From NCBI RefSeq assembly GCF_003590855.1, contig NZ_QYUP01000123.1, forward strand, positions 1 through 64,000: a stretch of DNA of 64,000 nt, given 5' to 3'. Positions within the stretch are counted from its first letter, which is position 1. Every line of letters begins with the position of its first letter. A model generated the notes under the pieces. That model was not told the origin of the DNA and ran no database searches. It saw only the letters and a program-made list of their open reading frames with translations. Made by a program: the position numbers and the translations under genes. Shown one piece after another: positions 1,808-59,140 of this stretch. The stretch is from Massilia cavernae. Lineage in GTDB: Bacteria > Pseudomonadota > Gammaproteobacteria > Burkholderiales > Burkholderiaceae_D.

Positions 1808-2635
1808 CTACGGCATGCTCAATGAGAAAGGCCGGTCGGCGCCCAGGCTGGGAATTGCCCGGCGCGCCTGCTGGACCAGCGCCAGGTCGAGCGTGGCGTC
1901 GATGATGCCTGGTTCGGTCCCCGTTTCGGCCAGTACCCGGCCCCACGGGTCGATGATGATCGAATGGCCGAAGCTTTGCCGGGCGCCGTAGTTGTTGCCG
2001 CACTGCGCGGGCGCGAACACGAAGCAGCCGTTCTCGATGGCCCTGGCGCGCATCAGCGCATGCCAGTGCGCCTCGCCGGTGACCTGCATAAAGGCGGCCG
2101 GGATGGCGAGCACGTTCGCGCCGCCCTTGGCCAGCGTACGGAACAGCTGCGGGAAACGAAGGTCATAGCAGATCGACAGCCCGATGCGGGCATGATCGAG
2201 TTCTGCAACCACGGCGCGGGTGCCGGCCACGTACAGTTTCGACTCCGTCGAGACGACCTCGCCGGGCGCAGCGTCGAACAGGTGGACCTTATCGTAGTAG
2301 CAGGCGATCGCGCCTTGGCGGTCGATGAAGACGCAGCGGTTCACCATCTGGCCCGACTCGTTCAGCGCCGCAATCGAACCCACCAGGACCGCCACGCCCA
2401 GCTCGCGCGCGGCGGCGCGGTAGCCCTTGAGGGCAGGGTGCTGGTGCATGGGTGCGGCAAACGCGCGCATGCGCTCGTTGTCCGCGTCGAGCAGGTCGAC
2501 CGCCTCGGGCAGGCCGATAAGGGTGGCGCCGCGGCTGGCGGCTTCGCGGATCATCTGCAGCGATTCGCGCAGGTTGCGCTCAAAGTCCGGGCCGGTAGTC
2601 GTTTGCACGCAGGCGCAGTGTAGTGGATTGGTCAT
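1808..2635 (-). CDS. Carbon-nitrogen hydrolase (nitrilase superfamily, Nit-like amidase)
   Basis: This 275-residue protein has the full nitrilase-fold triad: Glu44 in GLPEA, Lys116 in YYDKVHLFD and nucleophile Cys156 in SICYDLRFPQ. The length and the DKVHLFD and CYDLRFPQ signatures fit the Nit1/Nit2 branch, whose members hydrolyse deaminated glutathione or omega-amides such as 2-oxoglutaramate; the exact substrate is not resolved. It is transcribed divergently from the GntR-family gene, and the two operator half-sites at 2691-2714 lie in the shared intergenic region, so it may belong to the same regulon. An omega-amidase would fit beside a glutamine-synthetase-like ligase, but that link is inference. 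Confidence 0.88.
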   Translation of the reverse strand: MTNPLHCACVQTTTGPDFERNLRESLQMIREAASRGATLIGLPEAVDLLDADNERMRAFAAPMHQHPALKGYRAAARELGVAVLVGSIAALNESGQMVNRCVFIDRQGAIACYYDKVHLFDAAPGEVVSTESKLYVAGTRAVVAELDHARIGLSICYDLRFPQLFRTLAKGGANVLAIPAAFMQVTGEAHWHALMRARAIENGCFVFAPAQCGNNYGARQSFGHSIIIDPWGRVLAETGTEPGIIDATLDLALVQQARRAIPSLGADRPFSLSMP

Positions 2636-2690
2636 TGTAGGTGACGAGCATGGGAGGCTCGTGTAGACTGAGGTTCAGTTGAACAATTCT

Positions 2691-2714
2691 GCCTACTATT
2701 TTGGCTACTATTTC
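2691..2714 (+). promoter_or_regulatory. Tandem GntR-type operator half-sites in front of the GntR gene
   Basis: Two 12-bp direct repeats, GCCTACTATTTT and GGCTACTATTTC, abut each other and end 6 bases before the GntR start codon. They share the TTGGCTACTAT core found before five other transcription starts in the first 14 kb. Unlike those sites, the left dyad arm is not recognisable here. The position suggests autoregulation and possibly control of the divergent nitrilase gene. Confidence 0.55.
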
Positions 2715-2719
2715 AAATT

Positions 2720-3385
2720 ATGGCAACAAATATTTCGCGTGACGAAAAAACCGAGTCGTTCGGGACCGCCCTGCGCGCCGATCTGCTCTCGGGAAAATAC
2801 TCTCCTGGCGAATGGCTCAAGCAGGCCGACCTCGAGTCGTCCTACGGGGCCAATCGTTTTGAAGTGCGCATCGCGCTTGCCGAACTGAACGCGCAAGGGC
2901 TGCTCGACCACTTCCCGAACCGCGGCTACCGGGTCTGCCAGCATTCCTACGCCGAACGCGAGCAGCTCTATGAGGTGCGTACCTTGCTGGAGGTGGCTGC
3001 CTGCCGCCTGGTCGTGCAACGAGCGACAGCTGAACAGATCGAGGAGTTCGAGCGCATGGTGAAGAAGTTCGACGAGTCGATCGAGAACGAGCGCCTTGGC
3101 AAGCTGCATGAGCTCAATTACGATTTGCATGGCCATCTGTATGAGATGACAGGCAATCCCATCCTCGCCGCCCAGATCCGCAACCTGCGCGAGCGCGGCA
3201 TTCCTGGCCGCCAGGGCATGTGGGACGTGCAGAAGTCGATCAAGGAAAGCAGCGCCGACCACTTCGAGATGCTAGACATGCTCAAGCGGCGCGACGCCGA
3301 CGGCCTTGCCGCCGCGGTGTACCGGCACTTGAACAACTGGCGGCGCGCCCCGGCCGGTTCCGCCGCCGCCACCACCGCCGAGTAA
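2720..3385 (+). CDS. GntR-family transcriptional regulator, FadR/FCD type
   Basis: The 221-residue protein has an N-terminal winged helix-turn-helix (about residues 10-75, with the LKQADLESSYGANRFEVRIAL and GLLDHFPNRGYRV segments of GntR proteins) and an all-helical FCD ligand domain (about 85-210) with candidate metal-binding residues in DLHGHLYE, SADHFEML and YRHLNNW. FCD regulators bind carboxylates or amino-acid-like ligands. Start ATG 2720 has no clear Shine-Dalgarno sequence and follows the operator half-sites directly. Dyads sharing the same core precede most transcription units up to 14.2 kb, so this is the likely local regulator; that assignment is inferred from location and from the dyad form typical of FadR-type operators. 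Confidence 0.88.
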   Translation: MATNISRDEKTESFGTALRADLLSGKYSPGEWLKQADLESSYGANRFEVRIALAELNAQGLLDHFPNRGYRVCQHSYAEREQLYEVRTLLEVAACRLVVQRATAEQIEEFERMVKKFDESIENERLGKLHELNYDLHGHLYEMTGNPILAAQIRNLRERGIPGRQGMWDVQKSIKESSADHFEMLDMLKRRDADGLAAAVYRHLNNWRRAPAGSAAATTAE

Positions 3386-3498
3386 TTCTTCAAATCACGG
3401 CGACGCTTGCCCCAGCAGGCGCCGCCGCATTTCTATCCCTGCTATCCTGAAATCAGCCACTGTGCACGGCTGGCGCCGTCGCGCCTTGCATTTTCACG

Positions 3499-3528
3499 TT
3501 GACATGAGTCGCACAAATTGGCTACTCT
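3499..3528 (+). promoter_or_regulatory. Promoter with dyad operator before the glutamine-synthetase-like operon
   Basis: A -35 box TTGACA (3499-3504) and a -10 box TACTCT (3523-3528) are 18 bases apart. The spacer holds the operator: left arm GAGTCGC (3506-3512), 8-bp spacer ACAAATTG, right arm GCTACTC (3521-3527), with 6 of 7 arm positions complementary. The same geometry occurs at 10244 and 14145. A repressor here would occlude RNA polymerase. Confidence 0.65.
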
Positions 3529-3568
3529 TCAAGTTCGCCGATCCGGCCATTGACCGATGGGAGCAGCA

Positions 3569-4951
3569 ATGCAAGCCAGGGACATCAAAACCGCGCAAGA
3601 TGCGCTCGCGCTGGCCGAAGCACGCCAGCTGACACACGTGAAGGTCGCCGTCACCGATATCGACGGCGTCCTGCGCGGGAAATACCTGTCGAGGGAAAAG
3701 TTCGCCTCGACACTGGAAGGGGGCCTGTCGATGTGCAACGTTGTTCTGGGCTGGGATTCGCAGGACCAGCTCTACGACAACGTCGAGTACACCGGCTGGC
3801 ACACGGCCTATCCGGACGCGCAGGTGCGCCTGCTGCCGCACACGACCCGCGACCTGCCGTTCGAACCGGCTGCCGGCGGCGACATGCTGTTTGTGTTGGG
3901 GGAGTTCAGCGGCGAGGCCGAGCAGATCTGTCCGCGCGGCTTGCTGCGCCGGGTCCTCGAGCGCGCCCGCACGATGGGATTCGACGCTTTCGGGGCGCTC
4001 GAATATGAGTTCTTCATGTTCGACGAAACGCCGGAATCGGTACGCGCCAAAGGCTACCGCGACCTGCGCACCTGGACCCCGGGCGCATTCGGCTATTCGG
4101 TGCTGCGCAGTTCGGTCCATGCGGGCTTCTACCGGGAGCTGATCGAGCTGTGCGAAACGATGGACATGCCAATCGAAGGCTTGCACACCGAGACTGGTCC
4201 CGGCGTGCTCGAAGCGGCGCTGGCAGTCGATGAAGTCGGGGCAATGGCGGACAAGGCGATCCTGTTCAAGACCTTCGTCAAGGTGCTGGCCCAGAAGCAC
4301 GGCCTGATGGCCACCTTCATGGCCAAGTGGTCGCATGAGTATCCGGGCCAGAGCGGGCATATCCACTTGTCGCTGCGCCACCGGCACGACAATCGCTCCG
4401 CCTTTTATGATGCGTCGCAGGCGCACGGGATGAGCCAGGCGCAGCGTCATTTCATGGCCGGTGTCCAGCGCCTGCTGCCCGAGATGATGGCCATGTACGC
4501 GCAGACCGTCAACAGCTATTCGCGCCTGGTGCCGGGCTACTGGGCGCCGCTGGACGCGACCTGGGGCGTCGAGAACCGCACCACTGCGTTGCGGCTGGTG
4601 CCTGGTTCCGACAAATCGCAGCGGGTCGAAGTGCGCATCGGCTCGGCGGACGCCAATCCCTACCTGGCGCTGGCCGCTGCCCTCGCTTCCGGGCTGGAGG
4701 GCATCGAGCAGGGCTGGGAGCCTGGACCTATGGTCGTCGGCAATGCCTACACCCAGCAGTTCCCGGCGGCGCTGGCCTTGCCCAATACATTGTCCGACGC
4801 TGCGCTGCGCCTGCGCGGCTCCGACACCGCACGCCGCCTGTTCGGCGCGGCGTTCGTCGACCACTACGCCGCCACCCGCGAATGGGAGGACCGCCAGTTC
4901 AGGCGCCATGTGACCGACTGGGAACTTGCGCGTTACTTCGAAATTATCTAA
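3569..4951 (+). CDS. Glutamine-synthetase-family ligase (gamma-glutamyl-amine synthetase-like)
   Basis: About 460 residues with the glutamine synthetase fold: beta-grasp N-domain (VKVAVTDIDGVLRGKY) and catalytic barrel with the metal and ATP signatures EYEFFMF, HTETGPGVLE, KWSHEYPGQSGHIHLSL, NSYSRLVPGYWAP and VEVRIGSADANPYLALAA. Related non-housekeeping members (PuuA, IpuC and similar) join glutamate to amines before oxidation. The downstream aldehyde and alcohol dehydrogenases support an amine or amino-alcohol route. ATG 3569 is preferred over 3557 because GGGAG (3559-3563) is correctly spaced before it. It is the first gene of an operon with the dehydrogenases and the RraA-like gene. The substrate is unknown. 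Confidence 0.85.
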   Translation: MQARDIKTAQDALALAEARQLTHVKVAVTDIDGVLRGKYLSREKFASTLEGGLSMCNVVLGWDSQDQLYDNVEYTGWHTAYPDAQVRLLPHTTRDLPFEPAAGGDMLFVLGEFSGEAEQICPRGLLRRVLERARTMGFDAFGALEYEFFMFDETPESVRAKGYRDLRTWTPGAFGYSVLRSSVHAGFYRELIELCETMDMPIEGLHTETGPGVLEAALAVDEVGAMADKAILFKTFVKVLAQKHGLMATFMAKWSHEYPGQSGHIHLSLRHRHDNRSAFYDASQAHGMSQAQRHFMAGVQRLLPEMMAMYAQTVNSYSRLVPGYWAPLDATWGVENRTTALRLVPGSDKSQRVEVRIGSADANPYLALAAALASGLEGIEQGWEPGPMVVGNAYTQQFPAALALPNTLSDAALRLRGSDTARRLFGAAFVDHYAATREWEDRQFRRHVTDWELARYFEII

Positions 4952-4965
4952 GCCGGATTCTTCAT

Positions 4966-6357
4966 ATGACCACAGAAATCGTTACTATCAGTCCCATTGA
5001 CGGGCGTATCGTCGTGCGCCGCGAATGCGCCTCGCCCGCTGCCATCACCCAGGTCCTCACGCGCGCCCGCGCCGCCCAACCGGAATGGAAGCGCATGCCG
5101 CTCGCGCAGCGGGCGGCGCTGGTCGGACGCGCGGTCGACGCGCTGGTCGCCAACAAGGAGGCCATTGCAAGGGAACTGACGCTGCAAATGGGCCGTCCGA
5201 TCCGCTACGCCGGCGGCGAGGTCGATGGCTTCGAGAACCGCGCGCGCCACATGATCGCGATCGCGCAAGAGTCATTGGCCGATGTGGTGCCCACTGCCGC
5301 CACGGGCTTTGTCCGCTTCATCCGGCGCGAGGCGCTTGGCGTCGTGCTGGTCGTGGCGCCATGGAATTACCCGCTGCTGACCGCCGTCAATGCGATCGTG
5401 CCAGCGCTATTGGCAGGTAACACCGTATTGCTCAAGCACTCCGCGCAAACACCGCTGGTTGCCGAGCGCCTGGCCGAGGCTTTCGCGCAGGCCGGGCTGC
5501 CGCCGGGCGTATTCCAGATTATCCAGACCACGCATGACGACACCTGCCGCATGATCGCATCGCCCGAGGTGGATTTCGTCTGCTTCACCGGGTCGGTGGC
5601 GGGCGGCGTGGCGGTCGAGAAAGCCGCCGCCGGCCGCTTCATCGGCGTGGGCCTGGAGCTGGGCGCATGCGACCCCGCCTATGTCAGGGCCGATGCCGAT
5701 ATCGCACACGCCGTGGACAGCCTGGTCGATGGCGCCTTCTTCAATTCGGGCCAGTCGTGCTGCGGCATCCAGCGCCTGTATGTCCATCAATCGGTGTACG
5801 GCGAATTTATCGAACGCGCCGCCGCGCTGGCGCGCCAGTATGTGCTTGGCGATCCGCTCGATCCGGCTACCACCCTCGGTCCGCTGGTGCGCACCTCCGC
5901 CGCCGCCGAAGTGCGCAGCGTAGTCGCCGACGCGATCGGCAAGGGCGCGCACGGCCTGGTCGATCCGCGCGCCTTCGGCCTCGACAACGGCGCCACGGCC
6001 TACATGGCGCCGCAGATCCTGACCGGTGTCGACCACGGCATGCGCATCATGGCCGACGAATGCTTTGGCCCGGTCTGTGGCGTGATGCCGGTCGCCAGCG
6101 ACGAGCAGGCGATCGCGCTGATGAACGACAGCCAGTATGGCCTGTCGGCCGCGCTGTACACCAGGGATGCCGCCGCCGCCGTGCGGATCGGCGAACAGGT
6201 CGACACCGGCACCTTGTTCATGAACCGCTGCGACTACCTTGACCCGGCGCTGGCCTGGACCGGTATCAAGAACAGCGGTCGCGGCGCGACCCTGTCGAGC
6301 ATCGGTTTCGAGCACCTGACCCGACCAAAATCCTTTCACCTGAAGACAATCCTATGA
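4966..6357 (+). CDS. NAD(P)-dependent aldehyde dehydrogenase
   Basis: 463 residues from ATG 4966, 14 bases after the upstream stop. Aldehyde dehydrogenase signatures are present: Asn134 in APWNYP, Glu231 in GLELGACDP and catalytic Cys265 in NSGQSCCG, with CFTGSVAGG in the cofactor domain and ECFGPV near the C-terminus. Where most family members have LELGGKDP this protein has LELGACDP. It presumably oxidises an aldehyde made from the substrate of this operon, for example a gamma-glutamyl aminoaldehyde; that is inference from the neighbouring ligase and alcohol dehydrogenase. The stop codon overlaps the next start (ATGA, 6354-6357), so the two are translationally coupled. Confidence 0.92.
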   Translation: MTTEIVTISPIDGRIVVRRECASPAAITQVLTRARAAQPEWKRMPLAQRAALVGRAVDALVANKEAIARELTLQMGRPIRYAGGEVDGFENRARHMIAIAQESLADVVPTAATGFVRFIRREALGVVLVVAPWNYPLLTAVNAIVPALLAGNTVLLKHSAQTPLVAERLAEAFAQAGLPPGVFQIIQTTHDDTCRMIASPEVDFVCFTGSVAGGVAVEKAAAGRFIGVGLELGACDPAYVRADADIAHAVDSLVDGAFFNSGQSCCGIQRLYVHQSVYGEFIERAAALARQYVLGDPLDPATTLGPLVRTSAAAEVRSVVADAIGKGAHGLVDPRAFGLDNGATAYMAPQILTGVDHGMRIMADECFGPVCGVMPVASDEQAIALMNDSQYGLSAALYTRDAAAAVRIGEQVDTGTLFMNRCDYLDPALAWTGIKNSGRGATLSSIGFEHLTRPKSFHLKTIL

Positions 6358-7523
6358 ACATGACACCTATCCGCGTCAGCTGGAACTATCCCACTGCAAT
6401 CAAGGCCGGCGCCGGCAGCATCGAACTGCTGCCCGGGCTATGCCAGTCCCTCGGCATGACCAATCCCTTGCTTGTCACCGATCCCGGCCTGGCCCGGCTG
6501 GCGCTGCCCGCGGCCGCCGTCGAACTGTGCCGCGCCGCAGGCCTGCGCTGCGCGGTGTTCAGCGAGGTCAAGGGCAACCCAAACGGCGAGAACGTGACCG
6601 CCGGCGTTGCCGCCTACCACGCCGGGCTGCACGACGGCGTCATCGCCTTCGGTGGCGGCTCCGCCATCGATGCCGCCAAGGCTATCGCATTGATGGTCGG
6701 GCAGGACCGCCCGCTGTGGGATTTCGAGGACATCGGCGATAATTGTCTGCGTGTCAAAGTGGACCGCATGGCGCCCGTGATCGCTGTGCCGACTACTGCG
6801 GGCACCGGTTCGGAAGTCGGGCGCGCATCGGTCATCACCGACGAGCAGGCGCGCGTCAAGCGCATCATTTTCCACGCCCGCATGCTGCCTGCGGCGGTGA
6901 TCCTCGATCCCGAGCTGAGCGTGGGGCTGCCGCCGTCGCTGACCGCCGCCACCGGAATGGACGCGCTGTCGCACAACCTCGAGGCCTACTGTTCCCCGTT
7001 CTATCATCCGATGGCGGCAGGAGTGGCGCTGGAAGGCATACGCCTGGTCAAGGACTGGCTGCCGGCGGCGGTCGCAGTCGGGGGCAACCTGGAGGCGCGC
7101 CTGCACATGCTGGTCGCGTCGAGCATGGGCGCGACCGCATTCCAGCGCGGCTTGGGCGCCATGCACGCGCTGGCCCATCCGCTTGGCGCCCTGTACGACG
7201 CCCACCACGGCATGCTCAATGCAATCCTGATGCCGTACGTGCTGAAGGCGAATCGGGCCGCCATCGACACCCGCGTCGCTGCGCTGGCACGCTACCTTGA
7301 TTTGCCGGATCCATCGTTCGACGCCTTCCTGGACTGGGTGCTGGCGCTACGGGCGCAACTGGGCATCCCGCATGCGCTCTCGGCGCTTGGCATCGACGCC
7401 ACCGAGGCCGCTCAGGTGGCGCGCATGGCAGTGGCGGACGGCTCCGCCGCGACCAACCCGATCGCATTTTCGGAGCATGAGTACGCGCGCATCTTCACCG
7501 ATGCCGTGGCCGGCGAACTGTAG
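6354..7523 (+). CDS. Iron-containing (group III) alcohol dehydrogenase
   Basis: 389 residues, the usual length of the Fe-ADH family. The nucleotide-binding loop GGGSAIDAAK lies at about 100-109, PTTAGTGSE follows, and the metal ligands are in MDALSHNLEAY and in the His-rich HALAHPLGALYDAHHGM segment. It would interconvert an alcohol and an aldehyde, feeding or draining the aldehyde dehydrogenase encoded just upstream with a 4-base overlap. It is followed after 31 bases by the interrupted RraA-like gene, which belongs to the same transcription unit. Confidence 0.92.
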   Translation: MNMTPIRVSWNYPTAIKAGAGSIELLPGLCQSLGMTNPLLVTDPGLARLALPAAAVELCRAAGLRCAVFSEVKGNPNGENVTAGVAAYHAGLHDGVIAFGGGSAIDAAKAIALMVGQDRPLWDFEDIGDNCLRVKVDRMAPVIAVPTTAGTGSEVGRASVITDEQARVKRIIFHARMLPAAVILDPELSVGLPPSLTAATGMDALSHNLEAYCSPFYHPMAAGVALEGIRLVKDWLPAAVAVGGNLEARLHMLVASSMGATAFQRGLGAMHALAHPLGALYDAHHGMLNAILMPYVLKANRAAIDTRVAALARYLDLPDPSFDAFLDWVLALRAQLGIPHALSALGIDATEAAQVARMAVADGSAATNPIAFSEHEYARIFTDAVAGEL

Positions 7524-7711
7524 GCGCCGCCAGCTGGAAAGGACAAGGACAAGCATGGACAAGTACCGGCTCGAAGCGATGCCGCCCCAGGTTGCGCCCG
7601 CGCTGGTGGCCAGCCTGGCGGGTATGGCGACCGCCACCATTGGCCACTTTTATCCGACAGCGCGTAAAAGGTGGGGGATATAAGCGCGGGATGCTGAAAG
7701 CATCCTTGCTT

Positions 7712-7747
7712 TTGACTTTAATCTTGATACACTGGATATTTATACAG
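7712..7747 (+). promoter_or_regulatory. tnpB promoter overlapped by a LexA-like box
   Basis: A sigma70-like promoter TTGACT (7712-7717), 17-base spacer, GATATT (7735-7740). Across the -10 lies CTGG-ATATTTAT-ACAG (7732-7747), which differs at one base from the LexA consensus CTGT-N8-ACAG. This is the layout of SOS-controlled promoters, but binding is only predicted and no lexA gene is in the window. Confidence 0.45.
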
Positions 7748-7758
7748 TGATTTCGACA

Positions 7759-8700
7759 ATGATGCCACGCGCTTCCCAATCCCAGACCGGTCCGCTTACG
7801 CGCGTGCTTCGGCTAAGGCTGAAAGATAAGCACGCGGCGGCGCTTCGGGAAAAATCGTATTGGGTCAATATGGTCTGGAATTACTGCAACGATCTGTCAT
7901 TCAAAGTGTGGGAGCGCGAGCGCCGTTTCATGTCTGGCTATGATTTTGCCAAATACACCAAGGGTGCCGGCAAAGCCGGCATCCCACTGCACTCCCAGAC
8001 TATCCAGGCAATTTCGGAAGAATTCGCTGCCCGGCGTAAACAATCCAAGAAACTGAAGCTGCGCTGGAGGGTCTCGGAGGATGCTCGTGGCCGTTGGTAC
8101 ATCAATATCTCCGTCAAGGTCGGCAGGCCGGCCGCGTCGCGCATGGAGCGCTCAATCGGAATTGACTTGGGCTTGAAGGATTTTGCGTCCACCTCGGACG
8201 GCGAGGTGATTGACGCGCAGCACATCTATCGGGATGCTGAGGCGCGACTGGCGGCGGCTCAGCGTGCAGGAAAGAAGAAGATAGTAAGAAATATCCACGC
8301 GAAGACTGCAAACAAACGCAGGGATTTCAATCACAAATTAAGCGCCAGGCTGGTTGTAGGGCATGGCGCAATCTTTGTTGGCAATGTGAATGCGGGCGCG
8401 CTGGCCAAGACGCGGATGGCGAAATCCGTATCGGATGCAGGGTGGTCGCAATTCCGAACCATGCTCAGTTACAAATGCGATAGCGCAGGTGTATGGTTCG
8501 ATGAGGTCCATGAAGCGTATTCCACCCAAGACTGTTCTGCGTGCTTCGCACGCAGCGGGCCGAAAGGACTGCAAGATCTTGGAGTAAGAGAATGGACTTG
8601 TTTGGAATGCGGCGAGCATCACCATCGTGATGTGAATGCCGCCAAGAACATTCTCCGTCGCGGACGTGCGACGCTGGTAGTAGGAATCCCGGTCCTTTAG
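7759..8700 (+). CDS. tnpB: TnpB, RNA-guided nuclease of an IS1341-type element (internally shortened)
   Basis: About 313 residues from ATG 7759; a GTG at 7747 would lie at the predicted transcription start, so the ATG is preferred. RuvC-I is GIDLGLKDF, the zinc finger is CSAC/CLEC and RuvC-III is HRDVNAAKNIL. At the second RuvC site, where canonical TnpB has Ile-Glu-Asp-Leu, this protein reads VGNV, so the usual Glu is missing; an Asp in the conserved KSVSDAGW nearby might replace it. Relatives with the same LAKTRMAKS signature have about 50 more residues between KLRWR and DARGRWY (wedge domain), which are absent here. Its stop TAG lies inside the right-end hairpin. Nuclease activity is uncertain. 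Confidence 0.87.
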   Translation: MMPRASQSQTGPLTRVLRLRLKDKHAAALREKSYWVNMVWNYCNDLSFKVWERERRFMSGYDFAKYTKGAGKAGIPLHSQTIQAISEEFAARRKQSKKLKLRWRVSEDARGRWYINISVKVGRPAASRMERSIGIDLGLKDFASTSDGEVIDAQHIYRDAEARLAAAQRAGKKKIVRNIHAKTANKRRDFNHKLSARLVVGHGAIFVGNVNAGALAKTRMAKSVSDAGWSQFRTMLSYKCDSAGVWFDEVHEAYSTQDCSACFARSGPKGLQDLGVREWTCLECGEHHHRDVNAAKNILRRGRATLVVGIPVL

Positions 8701-8717
8701 GGCCGGGAGGACGTCAA
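8590..8717 (+). ncRNA. Predicted omega-RNA scaffold of the tnpB element
   Basis: In IS200/IS605 elements the guide RNA scaffold is made from the 3' end of tnpB plus the right end, and the guide is the flanking DNA after it. Here the scaffold would end with the hairpin at 8688-8707 and GGACGTCAA, and the guide would begin with CAATGGGGCTTC of the interrupted gene. The 5' limit given is approximate. Confidence 0.45.
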
Positions 8718-9280
8718 CAATGGGGCTTCATGGACCTGGCGCTGCAGCGCCTGCGCCCGGGTGGCGTGGTGGCCGGCACGGCGGTCACCCTGAGCATTCC
8801 ATCCCAGGACTCGACCTTGCTGCATCACGTGATCGGCATGCTGCGGCCAGGCGACTTCCTGGTGGTCGAACGCCAAGGCGATCACCGCCATGCCTGCTGG
8901 GGCGGCGGCGTCACCAGGGCGGCCCGCAATGCCGGCCTGGCGGGAGCGGTCATCGACGGCCCCTGCACCGACCCGGGCGAGATCGCCAGCATTGGTTTTC
9001 CGCTATGGTGCCGCGGCGTTTCAGCCATCACGACCAGGATGAACGATGTCGGCGGCCGCTTCAATATGCCGGTCAGCTGCGGCGGCGTGGCCGTGTCGCC
9101 AGGGGACCTGGTCCTGGCCGACGAAAGCGGCGTTCTGGTCCTGCCGCGCGACGAAGCAAGCGCGGTCGCTCAGCGGGCCCTCGCGCTTGCCGCCGACATC
9201 GAGCGCGGCGAGCAGCGCCTCGATGCCGGCGAACTGCTCGGCAAGGTGTACGGCGCCTCCGCCTTGGTCGTGGCGCGCCG

Positions 9281-10183
9281 CTAGTCGGTGGGCCCGGTCT
9301 GCTTGTGCAGGAAGGCGTTCAGGACGGCGAAGTAGGCCTGCGGCCGCTCGAAGAAAGGCATGTGCGAGCAGTCGCGGAAAATCACCAGCTCCGCGTTTGG
9401 CATCGCCTGCTGCATGCGCGCGGAGCAGGAGGGCGGCAATTCGTCGTATTCGCCGGCCAGCACCAGGCTAGGGATCGTAATGGCGCCCATGGCCGGCACC
9501 CGGTTCCAGTTCCGCATATTGCCGGTGTAGGTAAATTCGTTCGGGCCCTGGATGGCGCGGTAGGGATCCATGTTCCAGCCTTCGATGCTGGCGTTTAGCG
9601 AAGCGGGCCAGTCGTCGAGGCGGCACACGTGGCGGTAGTTGAGGATTGTGATGGCGGCCTGGTACTCCGGATGCCCGATGCTGCCTTCCGCTTCGCGCCG
9701 CGTCATCATGCTGACCGTTTGCTCGCCCAGGCACTGGCGAAGCCGCTGCAGTTCGCCGACCAGGTGCGGAATGTCTGCCGCGCCGTCGGCGGCGACATAA
9801 CTCAACACCCGCTGCGGAAAGGTCAGGCAGTATTCGGTTCCAAGCCAGGTGCCCCAGGAGTGTCCCAGCAAGTGAAAGCGCTCGATGCCCAATTGCGCGC
9901 GAATTTGTTCCAGTTCCGCGACGTAGCGTTCAAGGGTCCACAGTGCATTGTCGCGCGGCCGGTCGGACGCCCCACAGCCCAGCTGGTCGTAGAAGACGAT
10001 GCACCAGTCGTCATTGGCAAGTACCTTGTGGCTCTCGCGCAGATAGTCGCACGGCAAGCCAGGTCCGCCGTTGACGCATACCAGCACCTGCGCGGCCTGG
10101 CTGGGGGCGGGTCCGTAGCGATACGTGACGACCTGGTGGCCTTCGTTTAGGCGCAGCCGTGTTTCGTGGCAGGGGATGGACAT
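9281..10183 (-). CDS. Alpha/beta hydrolase, proline iminopeptidase (S33) family
   Basis: 300 residues with the S33 layout: NGGPG oxyanion loop (HGGPG in most relatives) near residue 40, nucleophile elbow GHSWGT near 110, a helical cap, an acid in GEYDELPP and the catalytic His in DCSHMPF near the C-terminus. Family members release N-terminal proline or other residues from short peptides, or cleave small amides. No signal peptide, so it is cytoplasmic. The start has a good Shine-Dalgarno (GGAG). It is divergent from the aldolase gene, with two operator copies between them, and its 3' end overlaps the broken RraA-like gene by 4 bases. Confidence 0.88.
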   Translation of the reverse strand: MSIPCHETRLRLNEGHQVVTYRYGPAPSQAAQVLVCVNGGPGLPCDYLRESHKVLANDDWCIVFYDQLGCGASDRPRDNALWTLERYVAELEQIRAQLGIERFHLLGHSWGTWLGTEYCLTFPQRVLSYVAADGAADIPHLVGELQRLRQCLGEQTVSMMTRREAEGSIGHPEYQAAITILNYRHVCRLDDWPASLNASIEGWNMDPYRAIQGPNEFTYTGNMRNWNRVPAMGAITIPSLVLAGEYDELPPSCSARMQQAMPNAELVIFRDCSHMPFFERPQAYFAVLNAFLHKQTGPTD

Positions 10184-10220
10184 ACAAGCTCCTTCATTGT
10201 CAGTGGGATTGGAGGTTATT

Positions 10221-10273
10221 TTGGCTACTATAGCAGTTTCGTCTTGACGGTGCTAGCTTGAATTGGCTACTAT
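10221..10273. promoter_or_regulatory. Divergent control region with two GntR-type operators and a promoter
   Basis: Promoter for the aldolase gene: TTGACG (10244-10249), 18 bases, TACTAT (10268-10273). The operator fills the spacer: TGCTAGC (10251-10257), TTGAATTG, GCTACTA (10266-10272), 5 of 7 arm positions complementary. A second core TTGGCTACTA (10221-10230) stands 42 bp upstream, about four helical turns, and is placed to act on the divergent S33 peptidase gene. There it forms the short palindrome GCTA-CTA-TAGC. Confidence 0.6.
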
Positions 10274-10303
10274 TTATCTGTCACCATTTGGCATCGGAAA
10301 AAC

Positions 10304-11071
10304 ATGTTCAGACCAAACCGCCTGCTGGCCAAATTCCGCGCGGGGGAGCCTTGCCTGGGCGCCTGGCTGTTCACGGGCAGTCCCACGGTGTCCGAAGTGC
10401 TGGGACTGGCAGGCTTCGACGCCCTGATCATCGACCATGAGCACACGCCGGGCGGTATCGAGACGGCGGTCGAGCAGATCCGGGCGATCCAGGCGGCCGG
10501 CCCCAGTACCGTGCTTGCGCGCGTCGGCAGTAACGACCCGGCCCGCATCAGGCTGCTGCTCGATGCGGGTGTCGAAGGCCTGATCCTGCCCGACGTCAGG
10601 AGCGCGGAGGAAGCGCGCCGCTTTGTCGCCGCTTGCCGCTACCCGCCCGCTGGCATCCGGGGTGCGCATTTCACGGTGTCGCGCGCCGCCCATTGGGGCA
10701 GGCAAGGGGAGCGCTACTACAGGGACATCGACAAGGAATTGATCCTGATCGCGATGATTGAAAGCGAGGCCGGCGTGCGTGCGATTCCCGCGATGGCAGG
10801 GATCGACGGCCTGACCATGCTGTTCCTTGGGCCGCTCGACCTGTCCGCCAGTATCGGCAAGATGGGCATGCTGGACGATCCGGCAGTCATTGGCGCCCTG
10901 CGCGAAGCCGAGTCGGCCATCCTCGGGCACGGGGTCATGCTGGGCGGCGCGGCGCTTCCCGCGGAGAGCGCCGCCGACTGCTTCGCGCGCGGTTATCGTT
11001 TCGTCACCAGCGGCAGCGACGTCGGCATGCTCCATGCCGGGGCGGCCCGGCTGCTGGCCGGGGCGCGGTAG
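10304..11071 (+). CDS. HpcH/HpaI-family class II aldolase
   Basis: 255 residues, the usual family length. Metal and base motifs of HpcH/HpaI aldolases are visible: DHEH at 44-47 (general base His), LARVGSND, MIESEAG (metal Glu) and FLGPLDLSASIG (metal Asp). These enzymes cleave 4-hydroxy-2-oxo acids to pyruvate and an aldehyde. It sits 23 bases downstream of the RNA start expected from the operator-containing promoter and 6 bases upstream of the M81 peptidase gene, so the two are co-transcribed. It probably performs a late carbon-chain cleavage in the pathway; the substrate is unknown. Confidence 0.9.
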   Translation: MFRPNRLLAKFRAGEPCLGAWLFTGSPTVSEVLGLAGFDALIIDHEHTPGGIETAVEQIRAIQAAGPSTVLARVGSNDPARIRLLLDAGVEGLILPDVRSAEEARRFVAACRYPPAGIRGAHFTVSRAAHWGRQGERYYRDIDKELILIAMIESEAGVRAIPAMAGIDGLTMLFLGPLDLSASIGKMGMLDDPAVIGALREAESAILGHGVMLGGAALPAESAADCFARGYRFVTSGSDVGMLHAGAARLLAGAR

Positions 11072-11077
11072 CTCGCC

Positions 11078-12544
11078 ATGGCACGGATCGCGCTTGCAGG
11101 CTTTTTGCATGAGACAAATACGTTCGCGCGGCGAATGACCGGCATCGACGCCTTCATCGCGGCCGATGCCTGGCCCGGCCTGGTCATGGGGGAAGCGCTG
11201 CTGGAGAGCGTCGCCGGCGCCAACCTGGCGAGCGCCGGCTTCATCGCGGCGATGCGGGGGCTGGGGCACGAGATCGTGCCGTTGCTGTGGTGTTCGGCCA
11301 ACCCGTCCGGCGTCGTCGCCAGCGATGCCTATGAAACCATCTGGACCATGCTGGCGCAGCAGCTGCGCGATGCGGGACAGATCGAAGGCTTGTTCCTCGA
11401 TTTGCACGGCGCGATGGTGACCGAGCACCATCCGGACGGCGAAGGTGAATTGCTGTCCCGGCTGCGCGCCGTGACCGGGCCGTCGATGCCCATCGTCGCC
11501 GCCATCGATTTTCACGCCAACGTCAGTGCGCGCATGGTCGAGCTGACCGACGCCATGGCTGCCTACCGCAGCTATCCCCATGTCGACATGGCGGACACCG
11601 GCGGGCGCGCAGCGCGCCTGCTGGACGGTATGCTGGACGGAACACGCCCGCATAAGGTGCACCGCCAGCTGGACTTCCTGATTCCGATGCTGGCGCAATG
11701 CACGCTGGCGCAACCGTTTGCGGGCCTGGTGGCCCTGCTCGAACGCACCGAAGCCGAGACTGGCGTCCGTGCCGCGATCGTACCTGGTTTTCCGCTGGCC
11801 GATACGGCCGATTGCGGCCCGTCGATCCTGGCCTATGGTCCCGACCCAGGCGCCGTGGAGTGTGCCGCACAGCGCCTGCATGACGCCGTGGCCGCGCAGC
11901 GCCCGAACATGGCTGTTCGCCTGCTGGCGCCGAAGGAGGCGCTGGCCGAGGCGCAGGCCGTGCTGGCGCGCGGCGGCGGTCCGGTGATCCTGGCCGACAC
12001 CGAAGACAACCCGGGCGGCGGGGCCAGCGGGGACACGACCGATATCCTGCATGAACTGGTGCGTGGCGATGCCGATGCCTGCCTCGGCTTGCTGTGCGAT
12101 CCAGCCGCGGCGGAGCAGGCATGGCTGGCCGGGGTCGGCGCGCAGCTAGCGCTGGAGCTGGGCGGGGGCAGCGGCATTGGCGCGCCGCCCCTCAGCGCTT
12201 TGTTCCGGGTAGAGGCGCTGGGCGACGGCGAGATTACCGGCACGGGGCCGTTCTATCTGGGCTGCCGCATGTCGCTCGGCCGCATGGCCTGCCTTCGCAT
12301 TGGCCGGGTGCGGGTGGTGGTCGCGAGCCGCAAGCAACAGGCGGCGGACCAGGCGATGTTTCGCCACGTCGGCATCGAGCCCGGCCTCGAAACAATACTG
12401 GTCCTGAAAAGTTCGATTCACTTCCGCGCCGACTTCGAGCCGATCGCCGCGGCGATTCTGACCGTATGTGCGTCCGGCGACAACATTGCCGATACCAAGG
12501 CCCTGGACTACAAGCGCTTGCGCGCTGGCGTGTCGCGAGGCTAG
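11078..12544 (+). CDS. M81-family metallopeptidase (MlrC-like)
   Basis: 488 residues with the M81 arrangement: HETNTF at 11-16, DLHGAM at about 108-113, DFHANVS at 144-150 and YPHVDMADTG at about 167-176 supply zinc ligands, followed by the C-terminal MlrC domain (DNPGGGASGDTT). The named family member, microcystinase C, cleaves linearised microcystin and its tetrapeptide; many relatives act on unknown small amides or peptides. Together with the S33 peptidase and the truncated M17 gene it points to breakdown of a peptide- or amide-containing molecule. Co-transcribed with the upstream aldolase; the next start follows 6 bases after the stop. Confidence 0.88.
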   Translation: MARIALAGFLHETNTFARRMTGIDAFIAADAWPGLVMGEALLESVAGANLASAGFIAAMRGLGHEIVPLLWCSANPSGVVASDAYETIWTMLAQQLRDAGQIEGLFLDLHGAMVTEHHPDGEGELLSRLRAVTGPSMPIVAAIDFHANVSARMVELTDAMAAYRSYPHVDMADTGGRAARLLDGMLDGTRPHKVHRQLDFLIPMLAQCTLAQPFAGLVALLERTEAETGVRAAIVPGFPLADTADCGPSILAYGPDPGAVECAAQRLHDAVAAQRPNMAVRLLAPKEALAEAQAVLARGGGPVILADTEDNPGGGASGDTTDILHELVRGDADACLGLLCDPAAAEQAWLAGVGAQLALELGGGSGIGAPPLSALFRVEALGDGEITGTGPFYLGCRMSLGRMACLRIGRVRVVVASRKQQAADQAMFRHVGIEPGLETILVLKSSIHFRADFEPIAAAILTVCASGDNIADTKALDYKRLRAGVSRG

Positions 12545-12550
12545 GAACCG

Positions 12551-13093
12551 ATGAAGCAGGCAGACGTTCCGGCGCTGGCGATTGCACCGATGGCGGTGCG
12601 GCGCTCGCTGGCCACTGCGGACAGCGACTGCATCGTGGTCGCTGTCTCTGGCGGCGGCGGATTGTCGAAGCAGGCAGCGGCGCTCGACCGCTACGGCGAA
12701 ATAACGGAGGCAGTCGCGTCCGGCGACATCAGCGGGGAGCCTGGCTCGACGCTCCTGCTGCGGAACTTGCGCGGCGCACGCGCGGCGCGCGTCCTGCTGG
12801 CCGGATTCGGCAGCGGGCCGTCGATCGCGGAGAAGGACTTCATCGGCGCGCTCAGGCGCATCGCCGGATGCCTTGCCGCACTCGGTGCGCGCCGCGTGCT
12901 GCTGGCGCTGCCGATCCGGCAGGTGACAGGGCGTGGTCCGGACTGGGCGATACGATTGATTGTTCAAAGCGTCCACGACGCGTGGTTAGGAACGGCGTAT
13001 GTGCTGGCGGGCGGGCATGGCGCCACCGGGCGGCCGGTGTCCCTGCTGGCGACCTTCCTGATAAACCGGGCCAGGCGGGCGAGCCGGCTTTAG
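12551..13093 (+). CDS. M17 leucyl-aminopeptidase N-terminal-domain protein lacking the catalytic domain
   Basis: 180 residues. Residues about 20-145 resemble the M17 N-terminal domain (LDRYGEITEAVASGDISGEPG, TLLLRNLRGARAARVLLAGFG). The metal-binding catalytic domain that normally follows (roughly 300 residues) is missing: the frame ends in an unrelated tail (SLLATFLINRARRASRL) and no M17 catalytic motifs are seen in any frame before the convergent hydrolase gene at 13158. It could be a deletion remnant or a stand-alone regulatory domain. It is the last gene of the aldolase-M81 operon. No peptidase activity is expected. Confidence 0.6.
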   Translation: MKQADVPALAIAPMAVRRSLATADSDCIVVAVSGGGGLSKQAAALDRYGEITEAVASGDISGEPGSTLLLRNLRGARAARVLLAGFGSGPSIAEKDFIGALRRIAGCLAALGARRVLLALPIRQVTGRGPDWAIRLIVQSVHDAWLGTAYVLAGGHGATGRPVSLLATFLINRARRASRL

Positions 13094-13157
13094 CTGCCTC
13101 GATGCGCCGCTGGGCGCAGCCAGGGGGCGGGGGAGCCGGGCGGCCCGCGCAAGCGGC

Positions 13158-13973
13158 TCAGTCCACGAAGGTGGAAGGCCGCCGCAAGAACGTGATGGCT
13201 GCCTGCACGACCGGTTCGAGCTGGTGGGCGACGCCGTCGAGTTCTTCGAGTGTGGCATGGATATGGTTGCGCGCGAGGTCGCGATGAAGGCTGCGAATCC
13301 GTTCGAGACGATTGGCGCCGGCGCTATCGACACCTTCCATCCAGCGCCGGTTGTCGCGGCCCTGGACGATTCCGGCGGTATTGATGTCGTCGCCGCCAAC
13401 GACCAGGTGAACCGGCACTTCATGCAGCGCCGCCCACGGGACTGGGCGTCCGAACAATTGCTCGTAGTCGTACAGTCCCACCCACCAGGGATAGGCGAGG
13501 CTGGGTAGCGTGACTGATCCGGGCGCGGCAACGATGACGGCACTCAGGCGTTCAGGGTGGACATAGAAGAAGCGATGTGCAAGGTGTGCGCCGCCCGAGA
13601 AACCAAACAGCGCGAAGCGGTCCGCATTGAGCTTGTAGGCCGCTGCGACCTGTTCGACCATCGCCAACAGGATCCTGTCATAACGGATGCCGTCGTTGTT
13701 CAGGTATTTGTAGTTATCCAGGTCGTCATCCTCTACACCCACCGGAAACAGTGGGGCAAGCACGACGGTATTGGTTTGCTGGGCATACTCGCTGAACAGG
13801 TCGCGCAAGTATTGATTGTTGCGGTCGGTTCCATGCACCGCCACCAGGATCCGGCCCGGCGGGTTGCTGTGGTAGTCGCGCGGTACGTACAGGCAGAACG
13901 AGAAGCGAGGGTCAAGCGCGCACGTAAAGCTGACGGTTTTTTCAACGTGGAAGGGAGAAGTAGGAGAGCCCAT
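13158..13973 (-). CDS. Alpha/beta hydrolase (PHB-depolymerase/dienelactone-hydrolase-like)
   Basis: 271 residues from ATG 13973. A longer frame to a TTG at 14012 exists but would start inside the operator, so the shorter form is chosen. Features are a VAVHGTDRN oxyanion segment, nucleophile elbow GFSGGAHLAHRF, an acid candidate in VVGGDDINTAG and a C-terminal His in ELDGVAHQLEP. There is no signal peptide. The fold suggests an esterase or amidase for a small substrate. It has its own operator-linked promoter region, divergent from the PepSY gene, so it appears to be a regulon member. Confidence 0.82.
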   Translation of the reverse strand: MGSPTSPFHVEKTVSFTCALDPRFSFCLYVPRDYHSNPPGRILVAVHGTDRNNQYLRDLFSEYAQQTNTVVLAPLFPVGVEDDDLDNYKYLNNDGIRYDRILLAMVEQVAAAYKLNADRFALFGFSGGAHLAHRFFYVHPERLSAVIVAAPGSVTLPSLAYPWWVGLYDYEQLFGRPVPWAALHEVPVHLVVGGDDINTAGIVQGRDNRRWMEGVDSAGANRLERIRSLHRDLARNHIHATLEELDGVAHQLEPVVQAAITFLRRPSTFVD

Positions 13974-14000
13974 CAATGGTGGCCTTGTTGAGTTCAAAAG

Positions 14001-14024
14001 GATAGTAGCCAATAATAGCTTCTA
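14001..14024 (-). promoter_or_regulatory. GntR-type dyad operator before the alpha/beta hydrolase gene
   Basis: Read on the minus strand: left arm TAGAAGC, spacer TATTATTG, right arm GCTACTA followed by TC; 6 of 7 arm positions are complementary. The right arm contains the -10-like TACTAT, ending 30 bases upstream of ATG 13973. No good -35 is seen at the expected distance, unlike the three other dyad sites. Confidence 0.55.
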
Positions 14025-14144
14025 TTTTGTGCGCTTGTAAACAGAAAGTCGCGTTGTTTCTGATGTTTGTCTGCTGCGCTGGCCCTGCCGCCTGTGGAGC
14101 CGTGTCCCGTTTTAACGTTCTTGCTCATGCCGCCCATTCGAAGC

Positions 14145-14174
14145 TTGACGATGGTAGCCGTGATTGGCTACTAT
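14145..14174 (+). promoter_or_regulatory. Promoter with dyad operator before the PepSY gene
   Basis: TTGACG (14145-14150), 18 bases, TACTAT (14169-14174). The spacer carries TGGTAGC (14152-14158), CGTGATTG, GCTACTA (14167-14173), with 6 of 7 arm positions complementary. Geometry matches the sites at 3499 and 10244 base for base. Confidence 0.65.
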
Positions 14175-14213: not shown

Positions 14214-15350
14214 ATGAATATTCGCGGATTGCCGCTGTTGGCGCATCGTTACCTGGGGTTGGCACTCTTGTTATTTGTGTGCAGCGCCGGCCTGACCGGT
14301 TCGCTGCTGGTGTTTCGGCACGAGCTAGACTATGCCTTGAATGCCGATGTGGTCCGTGTCCAGGCCGGGGGCAAACGCTTGACCGTCGCGGAGATGGTGA
14401 TTGCCCTGGCGATTCAGCGGCCTGGCGCCAGCGTCGAACAGTTTGTGGTCGGCAAGGGGCCCGACCGGGCATGGTTGTTCACGCTGGCGGGACATCGGAA
14501 TGGCCAGGCGGTGGTGACCGATGTGTGGATCGATCCCTATACCGGCCGCATCACGGGCCAGCGCAACCCTACAGAAACGGGCCTGGATCGGCGGCATCTG
14601 ATGACCACGATCTGGAAATGGCACAGCTCGCTGCTGATGGGAACGGGGGGGAAGACGCTGGGCGGAATTCTCGCCATCCTCTGGGTCGGCTTGTCATGCA
14701 TTGGCGTTTACCTCGCCTTGCAGCGCGGCCTGCGCAACGCCTTGCGCATCAAGGCCAATGGCAGTGGCTTTCGCGCGATCTATGACGGACACCGTGCCGT
14801 TGGCCTGGCGACCGTCCTGATCCTGTCCGCCAGCCTGCTGACGGCGATCAACCTGGCATTGCCGGACGCTTCCCGGCAGCTGATCAGCGCTTTGGCCTCG
14901 ACGCGGCCGCGGCTGCCGCAATCGCTGCCGGATCGGCCAGAACGAGAAACGCGCATCGAATTCGAGAACGCGTTGGAGATCGGGCGGCGCGCCATGCCAG
15001 ATGCTGTATTGACGGGCCTGGTTGCCTACCACGGTAAAGGTGTGTACCTGGTTCGGTTCCGTACTGCGGGCGATATCGCCGTCACCCATGGCACCGGGCG
15101 TGTCATCGTCGATATGGCCGACGGAACGGTTTTGCACCGCGAGAGCGCCGCCGATACCGGCGCGCCCGGGAATACTTTGATCACGTGGATGTATCCCCTC
15201 CACAGCGGGCAGGCGTTTGGTACGCCAGGGCGCCTGTTCATCATGGCGGTGGGCCTGGTGCCGGTATTGCTTTCCTTGACGGGTTTTTGGATCTGGCGCC
15301 AGAAGCGCCGCAACCTGAAGCCTGGATCCGCCTTGCAGCGCAGCCGGTAA
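14214..15350 (+). CDS. PepSY-domain inner-membrane protein (iron-regulated / siderophore reductase-like)
   Basis: 378 residues with four predicted membrane helices (about 15-37, 143-165, 190-212 and 340-362) flanking periplasmic PepSY regions. Conserved His residues lie at helix ends: AHRYLG near 11, KWHSSLL near 141, DGHRAVG near 190 and PLHSGQAFG near 330. This is the PepSY_TM architecture of proteins such as FoxB and PiuB, which bind haem and help reduce ferric siderophores after uptake. The operator before it places it in the same regulon as the catabolic genes, which links this cluster to import of an iron chelate or similar compound; that link is inference. Confidence 0.85.
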   Translation: MNIRGLPLLAHRYLGLALLLFVCSAGLTGSLLVFRHELDYALNADVVRVQAGGKRLTVAEMVIALAIQRPGASVEQFVVGKGPDRAWLFTLAGHRNGQAVVTDVWIDPYTGRITGQRNPTETGLDRRHLMTTIWKWHSSLLMGTGGKTLGGILAILWVGLSCIGVYLALQRGLRNALRIKANGSGFRAIYDGHRAVGLATVLILSASLLTAINLALPDASRQLISALASTRPRLPQSLPDRPERETRIEFENALEIGRRAMPDAVLTGLVAYHGKGVYLVRFRTAGDIAVTHGTGRVIVDMADGTVLHRESAADTGAPGNTLITWMYPLHSGQAFGTPGRLFIMAVGLVPVLLSLTGFWIWRQKRRNLKPGSALQRSR

Positions 15351-55738: not shown

Positions 55739-56150
55739 TTAGTGCGGAGTCTGCTGCTGTTCGATGTACTGCCGAATAACTGCGATGGGTGCGCCGCCGC
55801 AACTACCCGCAAAGTAGCTGGGCGACCAAAGCGCGCCGCCCCACAGTTTTTTTCGAATACTCGGATAGTTCTTCTTCCGAATCATGCGGCTGGAACCACC
55901 TTTCAGGCTGTTGACTAGATTGGAAACGGCAACCTTGGGCGGGTTGTTCACCAGAAGGTGAACGTGGTCATCCTCGCCTTCAAACCCACCAGTTCCGCTT
56001 CAGAGTGCAGACGCTGGCGAACATCGGGCGCAGGTCGTCAAGAATCTCTTTTGTGAAGACTTCACGGCGGTATTTTGTGACAAAGATCAAATGCACATGC
56101 ATTAGAAAAATACAGTGTCTTCCGTGGCGAATGTCGCTGCTATTACTCAT
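55739..56150 (-). pseudogene. IS200-type tnpA (Y1 HUH transposase) with two frameshifts
   Basis: Translating the minus strand from ATG 56150 gives SNSSDIRHGRHCIFLMHVH, then LIFVTKYRREVFTKEILDDLRPMFASVC, the N-terminal half of IS200 transposase. The frame then shifts twice, each consistent with one missing base: around 56002 (SEAELVG) and around 55985 (FEGEDDHVHLLVNNPPKVA). The last frame continues to TAA at 55739 with the catalytic Tyr segment VIRQYIEQQQ. HVHL supplies the HUH metal site. About 137 residues would result without the shifts. The element cannot make TnpA unless the calls are errors. Confidence 0.8.
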
Positions 56151-56171
56151 AGACCGAACGATAATCGAAGC

Positions 56172-59096: not shown

Positions 59097-59140
59097 TCTG
59101 AGCAATATTTTATCGCGCAGAGGGCTTTTGCGACACCCTC
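57439..59140 (-). mobile_element. IS1182-like insertion sequence nested in the IS605-type element
   Basis: A 1702-bp element bounded by perfect 15-bp terminal inverted repeats, GAGGGTGTCGCAAAA (57439-57453) and its complement (59126-59140), and flanked by the 4-bp duplication TTCA (57435-57438 and 59141-59144). Removing the element and one TTCA restores the right-end hairpin of the host IS605-type element, which fixes the insertion order. The transposase reads on the minus strand, in the direction of the hpn genes. Confidence 0.88.

Follow-up and report, generated by a model that had tools for sequence, protein, structure and literature searches.

In the 64,000-nt stretch of Massilia cavernae DNA analysed here (contig NZ_QYUP01000123.1, positions 1 to 64,000; hereafter the window), an 11-bp core, TTGGCTACTMT, is repeated upstream of most gene groups in an island of uptake and breakdown genes near the start of the contig. 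We propose, with a probability of about 0.8, that the repeated element is the operator of a GntR/FCD protein (hereafter GntR) encoded at 2720 and that this protein represses the island. We observed that the sites overlap promoter-like hexamers, are confined to the island, and recur together with GntR in two phyla; binding, repression, and an effector would complete the model as predictions from sequence. The motif probably marks a new, rare regulon of GntR. An initial annotation of this DNA had described the element and assigned it to the same regulator. Both the observation and its main interpretation are supported, with GntR binding still predicted, and we add a second contig, the recurrence in two phyla, a spacing test, a conserved tandem, and a limit to the conservation.

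Confinement of the element to one gene island

Exact cores were found at 2701, 3518, 10221, 10263, 14002-14012 (minus strand), and 14164. All six copies are within the first 14.2 kb and none is in the rest of the window, and the mean in 100 dinucleotide shuffles was 0.00, with no shuffle containing any copy. The repetition described in the initial annotation was thus confirmed; its positions at 2701, 3518, 10221, and 10263 were exact, and those at 14001 and 14163 were one base off. With up to two mismatches, the core occurred 11 times in the window compared with 9.63 expected, and 40 of the 100 shuffles were equally high, which is not above chance; therefore, our claim is based on the near-exact sites. 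The dyad TAGTAGC-N8-GCTACTA with up to three mismatches gave seven matches in the window versus 0.45 expected, a number equalled in none of 100 shuffles, and two of the seven (2295 and 45249) fall away from the previously described sites.

In the 5.44-Mb genome, the exact core occurred 10 times and a reversed control pattern did not occur. Six copies are in the window, two on another contig (C80), and one each on contigs C29 and C32; the last two lie within open frames of 448 and 111 codons and were set aside as probably coding. The composite pattern TTGACN-N11..13-TTGGCTACTMT matched four places genome-wide, namely 3499, 10244, and 14145 of the window and 4553 (minus) of C80, the last upstream of an ATP-binding cassette (ABC) transporter operon. 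The assignment of the dyad to this region also held across the genome: every match with zero or one mismatch was an island site. Two of the five places with exactly two mismatches were in the island, and the other three, on C29, C30, and C57, lie inside long open frames and were set aside as probably coding. Matches with up to three mismatches were mostly background (61 versus 45 for the reversed pattern). Only strong sites were used, since the loose searches for the core in the window and for the dyad in the genome were both near background. A literature text search found no description of the core as an operator among the matches listed, which, by their titles and abstract starts, came from other fields, and the titles listed for phosphonate regulators offered no operator for comparison.

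The operon downstream of the composite promoter on C80 encodes a substrate-binding protein, a fused permease, and an ATPase, and continues into a frame cut at the contig end (L015 1-346). This frame matches residues 34-151 of the TonB-dependent receptor in L024, a related cluster described below, and the frame cut by the start of the window contig (1..1679, +; C-terminal part of a TonB-dependent receptor, PF00593) matches residues 181-744 of the same protein, with 26-30% identity for the two halves. In L024 and in a second related genome, G030, the genes for the hydrolase, transporter, and TonB receptor follow one another in this order without a break. From these complementary halves and the intact order, C80 most likely adjoins the window contig, which would bring eight of the 10 exact cores into one island of ca. 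19 kb. The regulon, previously described as local, also takes in the C80 transporter beyond the window. An exact core at L015 4720-4730 points away from the transporter operon, and no long frame was seen on that side; it may be a relic, because the hydrolase gene occupies that place in L024 and G030.

Promoter overlap and geometry of the sites

Three composite sites in the window coincide with promoter-like hexamers: TTGACA-18-TACTCT at 3499..3528 (+) with the dyad at 3506-3527, and TTGACG-18-TACTAT at both 10244..10273 (+) and 14145..14174 (+), with dyads at 10251-10272 and 14152-14173, respectively. A composite dyad at 14002..14024 (−), upstream of an esterase-like hydrolase gene, has no TTGAC at this distance. 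The exact core at 10221..10231 (+), between the iminopeptidase and aldolase genes, has a weak left arm (4/7) and is ca. 40 bp upstream of the divergent gene starting at 10183 (minus), which it may serve. The arms of the composite sites read T-R-G-T-[A/C]-G-C and G-C-[T/G]-A-C-T-A, inverted and 8 bp apart, and TTG precedes the right arm. Counted by eye, the −35 and −10 hexamers are 18 bp apart in six of the seven TTGAC-bearing sites and 19 bp apart in the seventh (L024 11708). The initial annotation had stated that the dyad exactly fills an 18-base spacer between TTGAC(A/G) and TACT(A/C)T. This spacer length was exact in the three window promoters, but the 22-bp dyad begins one base inside the spacer and extends over five bases of the −10.

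With transcription starts predicted accordingly, the left arm would lie in the spacer and the right arm over the −10 (TACTAT) of a sigma70-type promoter, with the −35 TTGACA/G just upstream. Since the operator overlaps the −10, bound GntR would block RNA polymerase and is most likely a repressor. Its targets would be the ABC transporter and TonB receptor, the hydrolases, the gamma-glutamylation enzymes, the aldolase and M81 metallopeptidase, and the PepSY_TM protein. GntR would repress its own gene through a direct repeat with a 12-bp period, and a small effector in the FCD domain would free the DNA. Small ligands such as carboxylic acids are given for FadR-subfamily proteins in PMC4494728.

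In seven sites, the core includes TACTAT at the distance from TTGAC that is usual for a −10, so the motif might be a mere promoter signature, that is, a −10 with a preferred upstream TTGGC, used for example by a special sigma factor and without operator function. We consider this very unlikely: the inverted arm at fixed spacing, the tandem copies, and the confinement to one island all argue against it, and TTGAC at 18 bp is an ordinary sigma70 layout.

The spacing of the arms was measured with 18 sites that had been located from their right half alone. For each, the preceding 7-mer was scored for its match to TAGTMGC at 26 spacings, and 4000 letter shuffles of the 35-bp flanks served as a control. 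At spacing 8 the left arm scored 3.94 of 7 compared with 2.00 ± 0.28 in the shuffles, none of which equalled it, and no other spacing exceeded 2.78. The 12 sites outside the window alone scored 3.5 at spacing 8, a value that 2 of the 4000 shuffles reached at one spacing or another, and the seven TTGAC-bearing sites scored 5.43. The 8-base spacer described previously is thus borne out, also outside the window. In the nine composite sites, which were chosen by eye and are therefore biased toward the left arm, the arm letters G, G, and C were each conserved in eight. Three further sites were not included in the 18: L024 -7607 lies inside the glutamine synthetase (GS)-like gene, L024 -11537 (TTGGCTACCAA, two mismatches, upstream of the hydrolase) fell outside the limits of the test, and G030 -1120 (CTGGCTACTAT, one mismatch) is beyond both the scanned stretch and the cluster.

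A different division of the site deserves serious weight, although we rate it as somewhat short of probable. The compact core TTGGCTACTA would be the primary site, bound by one dimer as a FadR-type pseudo-palindrome, and the left arm or tandem copy would serve as an additional box where a second dimer binds, in the manner of NanR. TTGGCTACTA fits TKGTM-KACMA at 8 of 10 positions by eye; the consensus is from PMC4494728, in which additional, weaker boxes at 7-12 nt from the centres of sites are also described. The core letters are better conserved than the arm letters, a good left arm is missing from several sites, and NanR, an FCD repressor that binds direct repeats asymmetrically, provides a precedent (PMC8012715). 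On the other hand, the strict GT of the consensus reads GG in the core, the left arm at exactly 8 bp far exceeds the shuffles, and the conservation of the core is inflated because the sites were selected by it. The likeness to Escherichia coli NanR consists of an FCD regulator, a direct-repeat operator, and weak sequence similarity. The window protein differs in scoring 65.4 bits against a cut-off of 260 with the NCBIfam NanR model and in its half-site and period. It also has no long N-terminal extension, its helix-turn-helix (HTH) match starting at residue 16; in NanR, a 32-residue extension is required for cooperativity according to the same source.

The tandem through which GntR would repress its own gene lies at 2689..2711 (+), in the divergent region between the carbon-nitrogen (CN) hydrolase and GntR genes. 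The copy at 2689 matches the core at 9 of 11 positions and that at 2701 exactly, which confirms the tandem copies previously noted at the start of this gene. The same tandem is present in L024 and G030. At offset 12, the copies in the three genomes had 9, 8, and 10 of 11 matches, and shuffles reached eight in 0.05 to 0.2%. The gap between the core and the GntR ATG, counted by eye, is 8 nt in the window, 11 nt in L024, and 6 nt in G030, and this position just before the ATG is consistent with autoregulation. A −10-like hexamer ends 6-11 nt upstream of the ATG in the three genomes (2706-2720 in the window; 9984-10001 in L024; and G030), so close that the transcript may be nearly or entirely leaderless. 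An alternative −10 for this gene is formed in the window by the first tandem copy.

GntR (2720..3385, +; 221 aa) has the FadR-subfamily architecture of an HTH followed by an FCD domain, with scores of 37.8 bits for PF00392 and 93 bits for PF07729, both above cut-off. FCD domains carry a metal-site pattern of Asp/Asn-x3-His, His, and His. Residues N133, H137, H181, and H203, which we take to correspond to this pattern, are invariant in three orthologues and retained in six proteins.

Recurrence with the regulator in other genomes and its limit

GntR was rare among the genomes searched. At E 1e-30, it was found in two of 245 own-family genomes (own and G030), one of 399 in the order (own), and one of 369 in the class (own); at E 1e-35, it was found in three of 398 in the phylum, two of these at only about 140 bits. 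A GTDB scan with six peptide patterns yielded one locus, L024, from an Opitutaceae metagenome-assembled genome (G631). In this Opitutaceae family, which belongs to another phylum, two of 252 genomes had GntR (G631 and G794). Because the samples were drawn evenly from larger groups and, in many genomes, first-look candidates were scored only in part, some occurrences may have been missed. Identity to the window GntR over the alignment was 65% in L024, 64% in G030, and 57% in G794.

The neighbouring genes were shared in parts, comprising the CN hydrolase, the prolyl-iminopeptidase-like hydrolase, the esterase-like hydrolase, the ABC transporter, and the gamma-glutamylation enzymes. In L024, the CN hydrolase, iminopeptidase, and esterase-like hydrolase were 59%, 71%, and 55% identical to those of the window; the binding protein, permease, and ATPase were 62%, 64%, and 70% identical to those of the own genome; and the GS-like ligase, iron-containing alcohol dehydrogenase, and aldehyde dehydrogenase were 46%, 43%, and 37% identical to those of the window. 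The G030 proteins had 47% (CN hydrolase), 60% (iminopeptidase), 52% (esterase-like hydrolase), 64% (aldolase), and 65-71% (transporter) identity with those of the own genome, and a search of the 33-kb stretch gave no ligase and dehydrogenase set. The 35-kb contig of G794 contained this set (38-48%), the hydrolase (43%), and a TonB receptor, and nothing in it matched the transporter, CN hydrolase, or iminopeptidase.

L024 has exact cores upstream of GntR (9979) and of the binding protein gene (11708, with TTGAC and a left arm), and TTGGCTACTTT at the TonB gene (15782). In G030, the tandem between CN hydrolase and GntR (16513/16525) has one mismatch in each copy, TTGGCGACTAT occurs at the GntR start (16672) and upstream of the hydrolase (19045, minus), and an exact core with TTGACA lies upstream of the binding protein gene (19236). 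G794 has TTGGCGACTCT near the GntR start (20658) and TTGGCGACTAT with TTGACA upstream of the hydrolase (21504). Genome-wide, the exact core occurred twice in G631 and once in G030, every copy in the cluster. Thus, in all three further clusters found, whose GntR is 57-65% identical, cluster promoters contain the site itself or a version differing by one letter, and this recurrence across two phyla makes chance an unlikely explanation.

GntR was the sole regulator seen in the clusters of the own genome, L024, G030, and G794. Its recognition helix, GANRFEVR, is identical in the three proteins with TTGGCTACT and reads HAARFEVR in G794. Because its binding to the motif is predicted rather than observed, another DNA-binding protein encoded elsewhere might own the motif, with GntR a bystander, and the pattern TTGACN-N12..14-TTGGCKACTMT occurred once each in G053 and G089, in which GntR was not detected (own genome, four; G030, one; 245 family genomes in all). 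Those single matches equal the background of the reversed pattern, which matched once in each of three genomes. We treated both as chance matches, since that in G053 is inside a 119-codon frame and that in G089, which precedes a long frame's likely ATG, has no left arm by eye. Being the one regulator seen in four clusters, with the tandem at its start and the motif tracking it across phyla, GntR is improbable as a bystander.

The copies could also be recent duplications of one promoter fragment within the island, without common regulation. The island indeed seems rearranged, in that the hydrolase gene is apart from the transporter, which it adjoins in L024 and G030, and an aldolase-like gene is split by a TnpB gene. 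However, similarity among the compared hydrolase and transporter promoter regions ends at the site, except for ca. 32 bp between the PepSY and G030 regions, and the same sites precede homologous genes in another phylum. Such duplication is extremely unlikely.

Several observations weigh against the proposed operator. In eight of the 18 sites of the spacing test, the left arm scored only 2 or 3 of 7, and the sites are few, related, and not independent, so the shuffle figures overstate the certainty and serve as guides only. The exact core was absent from G794 genome-wide, and the reversed core matched once in each of G030, G631, and G794, which makes position in the cluster, not count, the informative property. 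The common FadR-type operator is NyGTM-N0-1-KACNy, with GT and AC typically 2-3 nt apart (PMC4494728). The protein has the matching domains and the window arms carry the same GTM and KAC letters, but the arms are stretched to GTM-N12-KAC (12 bp instead of 0-1), a direct-repeat form accompanies the regulator gene, and the core has GG for GT. The FadR-type assignment in the initial annotation therefore holds for the architecture and not for a standard operator. The same source lists subfamily members with other motifs, and an odd operator is thus compatible with subfamily membership.

Two distant clusters also keep the gene core without the motif, and conservation therefore has a limit. Plasmids of Nitratireductor sp. 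OM-1 and Roseicitreum antarcticum carry homologues of the hydrolase, transporter, GntR, iminopeptidase, and CN hydrolase together (33-52% identity), the latter with an aldolase homologue in addition. Their GntR proteins are 33-37% identical to that of the window, with recognition helices GVGRFDVR and GCTRSAAR, and no motif was present outside annotated genes at zero or one mismatch. One-mismatch cores were confined to annotated genes (L061 9072 and L062 5027), and two-mismatch cores were also intergenic (L061 7149; L062 3021/3030). Both clusters stand near a LuxR gene; the product near the Nitratireductor cluster has the autoinducer-binding domain, and that near the Roseicitreum cluster is cut at the locus end, with the GerE domain alone seen. 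A Rhizobium etli plasmid homologue of the regulator has different neighbours and lacks the gene core altogether, an argument against the core being a general feature of distant homologues. A perfect 16-bp palindrome, AAATTGGCGCCAATTT, lies upstream of the Roseicitreum hydrolase gene (L062 3018-3033) and has TTGGC in common with the core; it may be the operator of that cluster.

With the proposed operator, a rare transcription factor gains a predicted binding site, a target list, and a promoter logic. FadR-type letters at unusual spacing, together with a second, direct-repeat form, would bear on how FCD regulators read DNA.

Gene content of the island and its possible substrate

Downstream of the regulator gene are genes for a GS-like gamma-glutamyl ligase (3569..4951, +; PF00120, below every NCBIfam cut-off, with an in-frame upstream start at 3557), an aldehyde dehydrogenase (4960..6357, +; PF00171), and an iron-containing alcohol dehydrogenase (6354..7523, +; PF00465). 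They are followed by an RraA-like aldolase gene (7555..9284, +; PF03737 on 8730-9281, the 5' part recognized by eye) that is split by a TnpB-type gene of the IS605 group at 7747-8700, with TnpB domains. The CN hydrolase (1808..2635, −; PF00795) is divergent from the regulator gene. Beyond the split gene are a proline-iminopeptidase-family hydrolase (9281..10183, −; TIGR01250 above cut-off), an HpcH/HpaI aldolase (10304..11071, +; PF03328), an M81 (MlrC-like) metallopeptidase (11078..12544, +; PF07364 and PF07171), and a leucyl-aminopeptidase-like frame (12551-13093) in which the N-terminal M17 domain was seen but the catalytic one was not. An esterase-like (polyhydroxybutyrate-depolymerase-like) hydrolase (13158..13976, −), with weak sub-cut-off matches and homologues in the clusters of the three relatives, and a PepSY_TM membrane protein (14214..15350, +; PF03929) come next.

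The best NCBIfam models for the regulator, fused permease, and ATPase were those of the Burkholderia-type phosphonate regulator phnR (TIGR03338) and the PhnU2/PhnT2-type transporter, but the scores were far below the curated cut-offs (91.3 of 271.5, 171 of 593, and 349 of 458 bits, respectively). The best solved relative of the binding protein is named an iron-binding protein. Phosphonate and iron remain candidate substrates, and the TonB receptor and PepSY_TM protein would suit iron.

The window iminopeptidase was 52-54% identical to rhizobial enzymes (among the best 25 of 157 plasmid records) and more distant, at 33-36%, from those of the two GntR plasmid clusters. All three opened loci of the rhizobial enzymes had a LuxR gene and an ABC transporter alongside, which is the layout of plant-responsive pip loci; the reported ligand of PipR is an ethanolamine derivative, HEHEAA (PMC10134790 and PMC4981722). 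The island thus resembles pip loci with a LuxR solo (PipR/OryR/NesR type) in its iminopeptidase, which is of the LuxR-neighbour type, and differs in having GntR as its regulator and another type of transporter; no LuxR or autoinducer-binding domain was found among the window cluster proteins scanned. The ligase and the alcohol and aldehyde dehydrogenases together resemble the Streptomyces coelicolor ethanolamine gamma-glutamylation set (GlnA4, SCO1611-1615; PMC9397018), which has another regulator. Three of the four members of such a set (ligase, both dehydrogenases, and gamma-glutamyl hydrolase) are in the window, and homologues of all four are in L024 and G794. The gamma-glutamyl-hydrolase homologue scored below its cut-off (107.5 of 266) and was not found in the window or the C80 stretch.

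With low confidence, we guess that the island is related to the plant-responsive pip/LuxR loci and that its substrate is an ethanolamine amide or that of another amino alcohol. Doubtful as a whole, though worth stating, is the idea that the island is a GntR-controlled counterpart of pip loci in two phyla, with a stretched operator (GTM-N12-KAC) plus 12-bp direct repeats at the regulator gene. An ethanolamine-type amide such as HEHEAA would be imported via the TonB receptor and the PhnT2/iron-type ABC importer and split by the PipA-like hydrolase, and the amino alcohol would be gamma-glutamylated. How the pip genes at plant-responsive loci act is called unknown in a review (PMC10134790), and a PipA-like hydrolase placed under one regulator with a gamma-glutamylation set would suggest a concrete catabolic role.

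Outside the island, a second TnpB-like gene, 26% identical to the first, was found in 56115-59105. It stands end to end with a frame at 57378-59105 (minus) that, by inspection, resembles an insertion sequence transposase.

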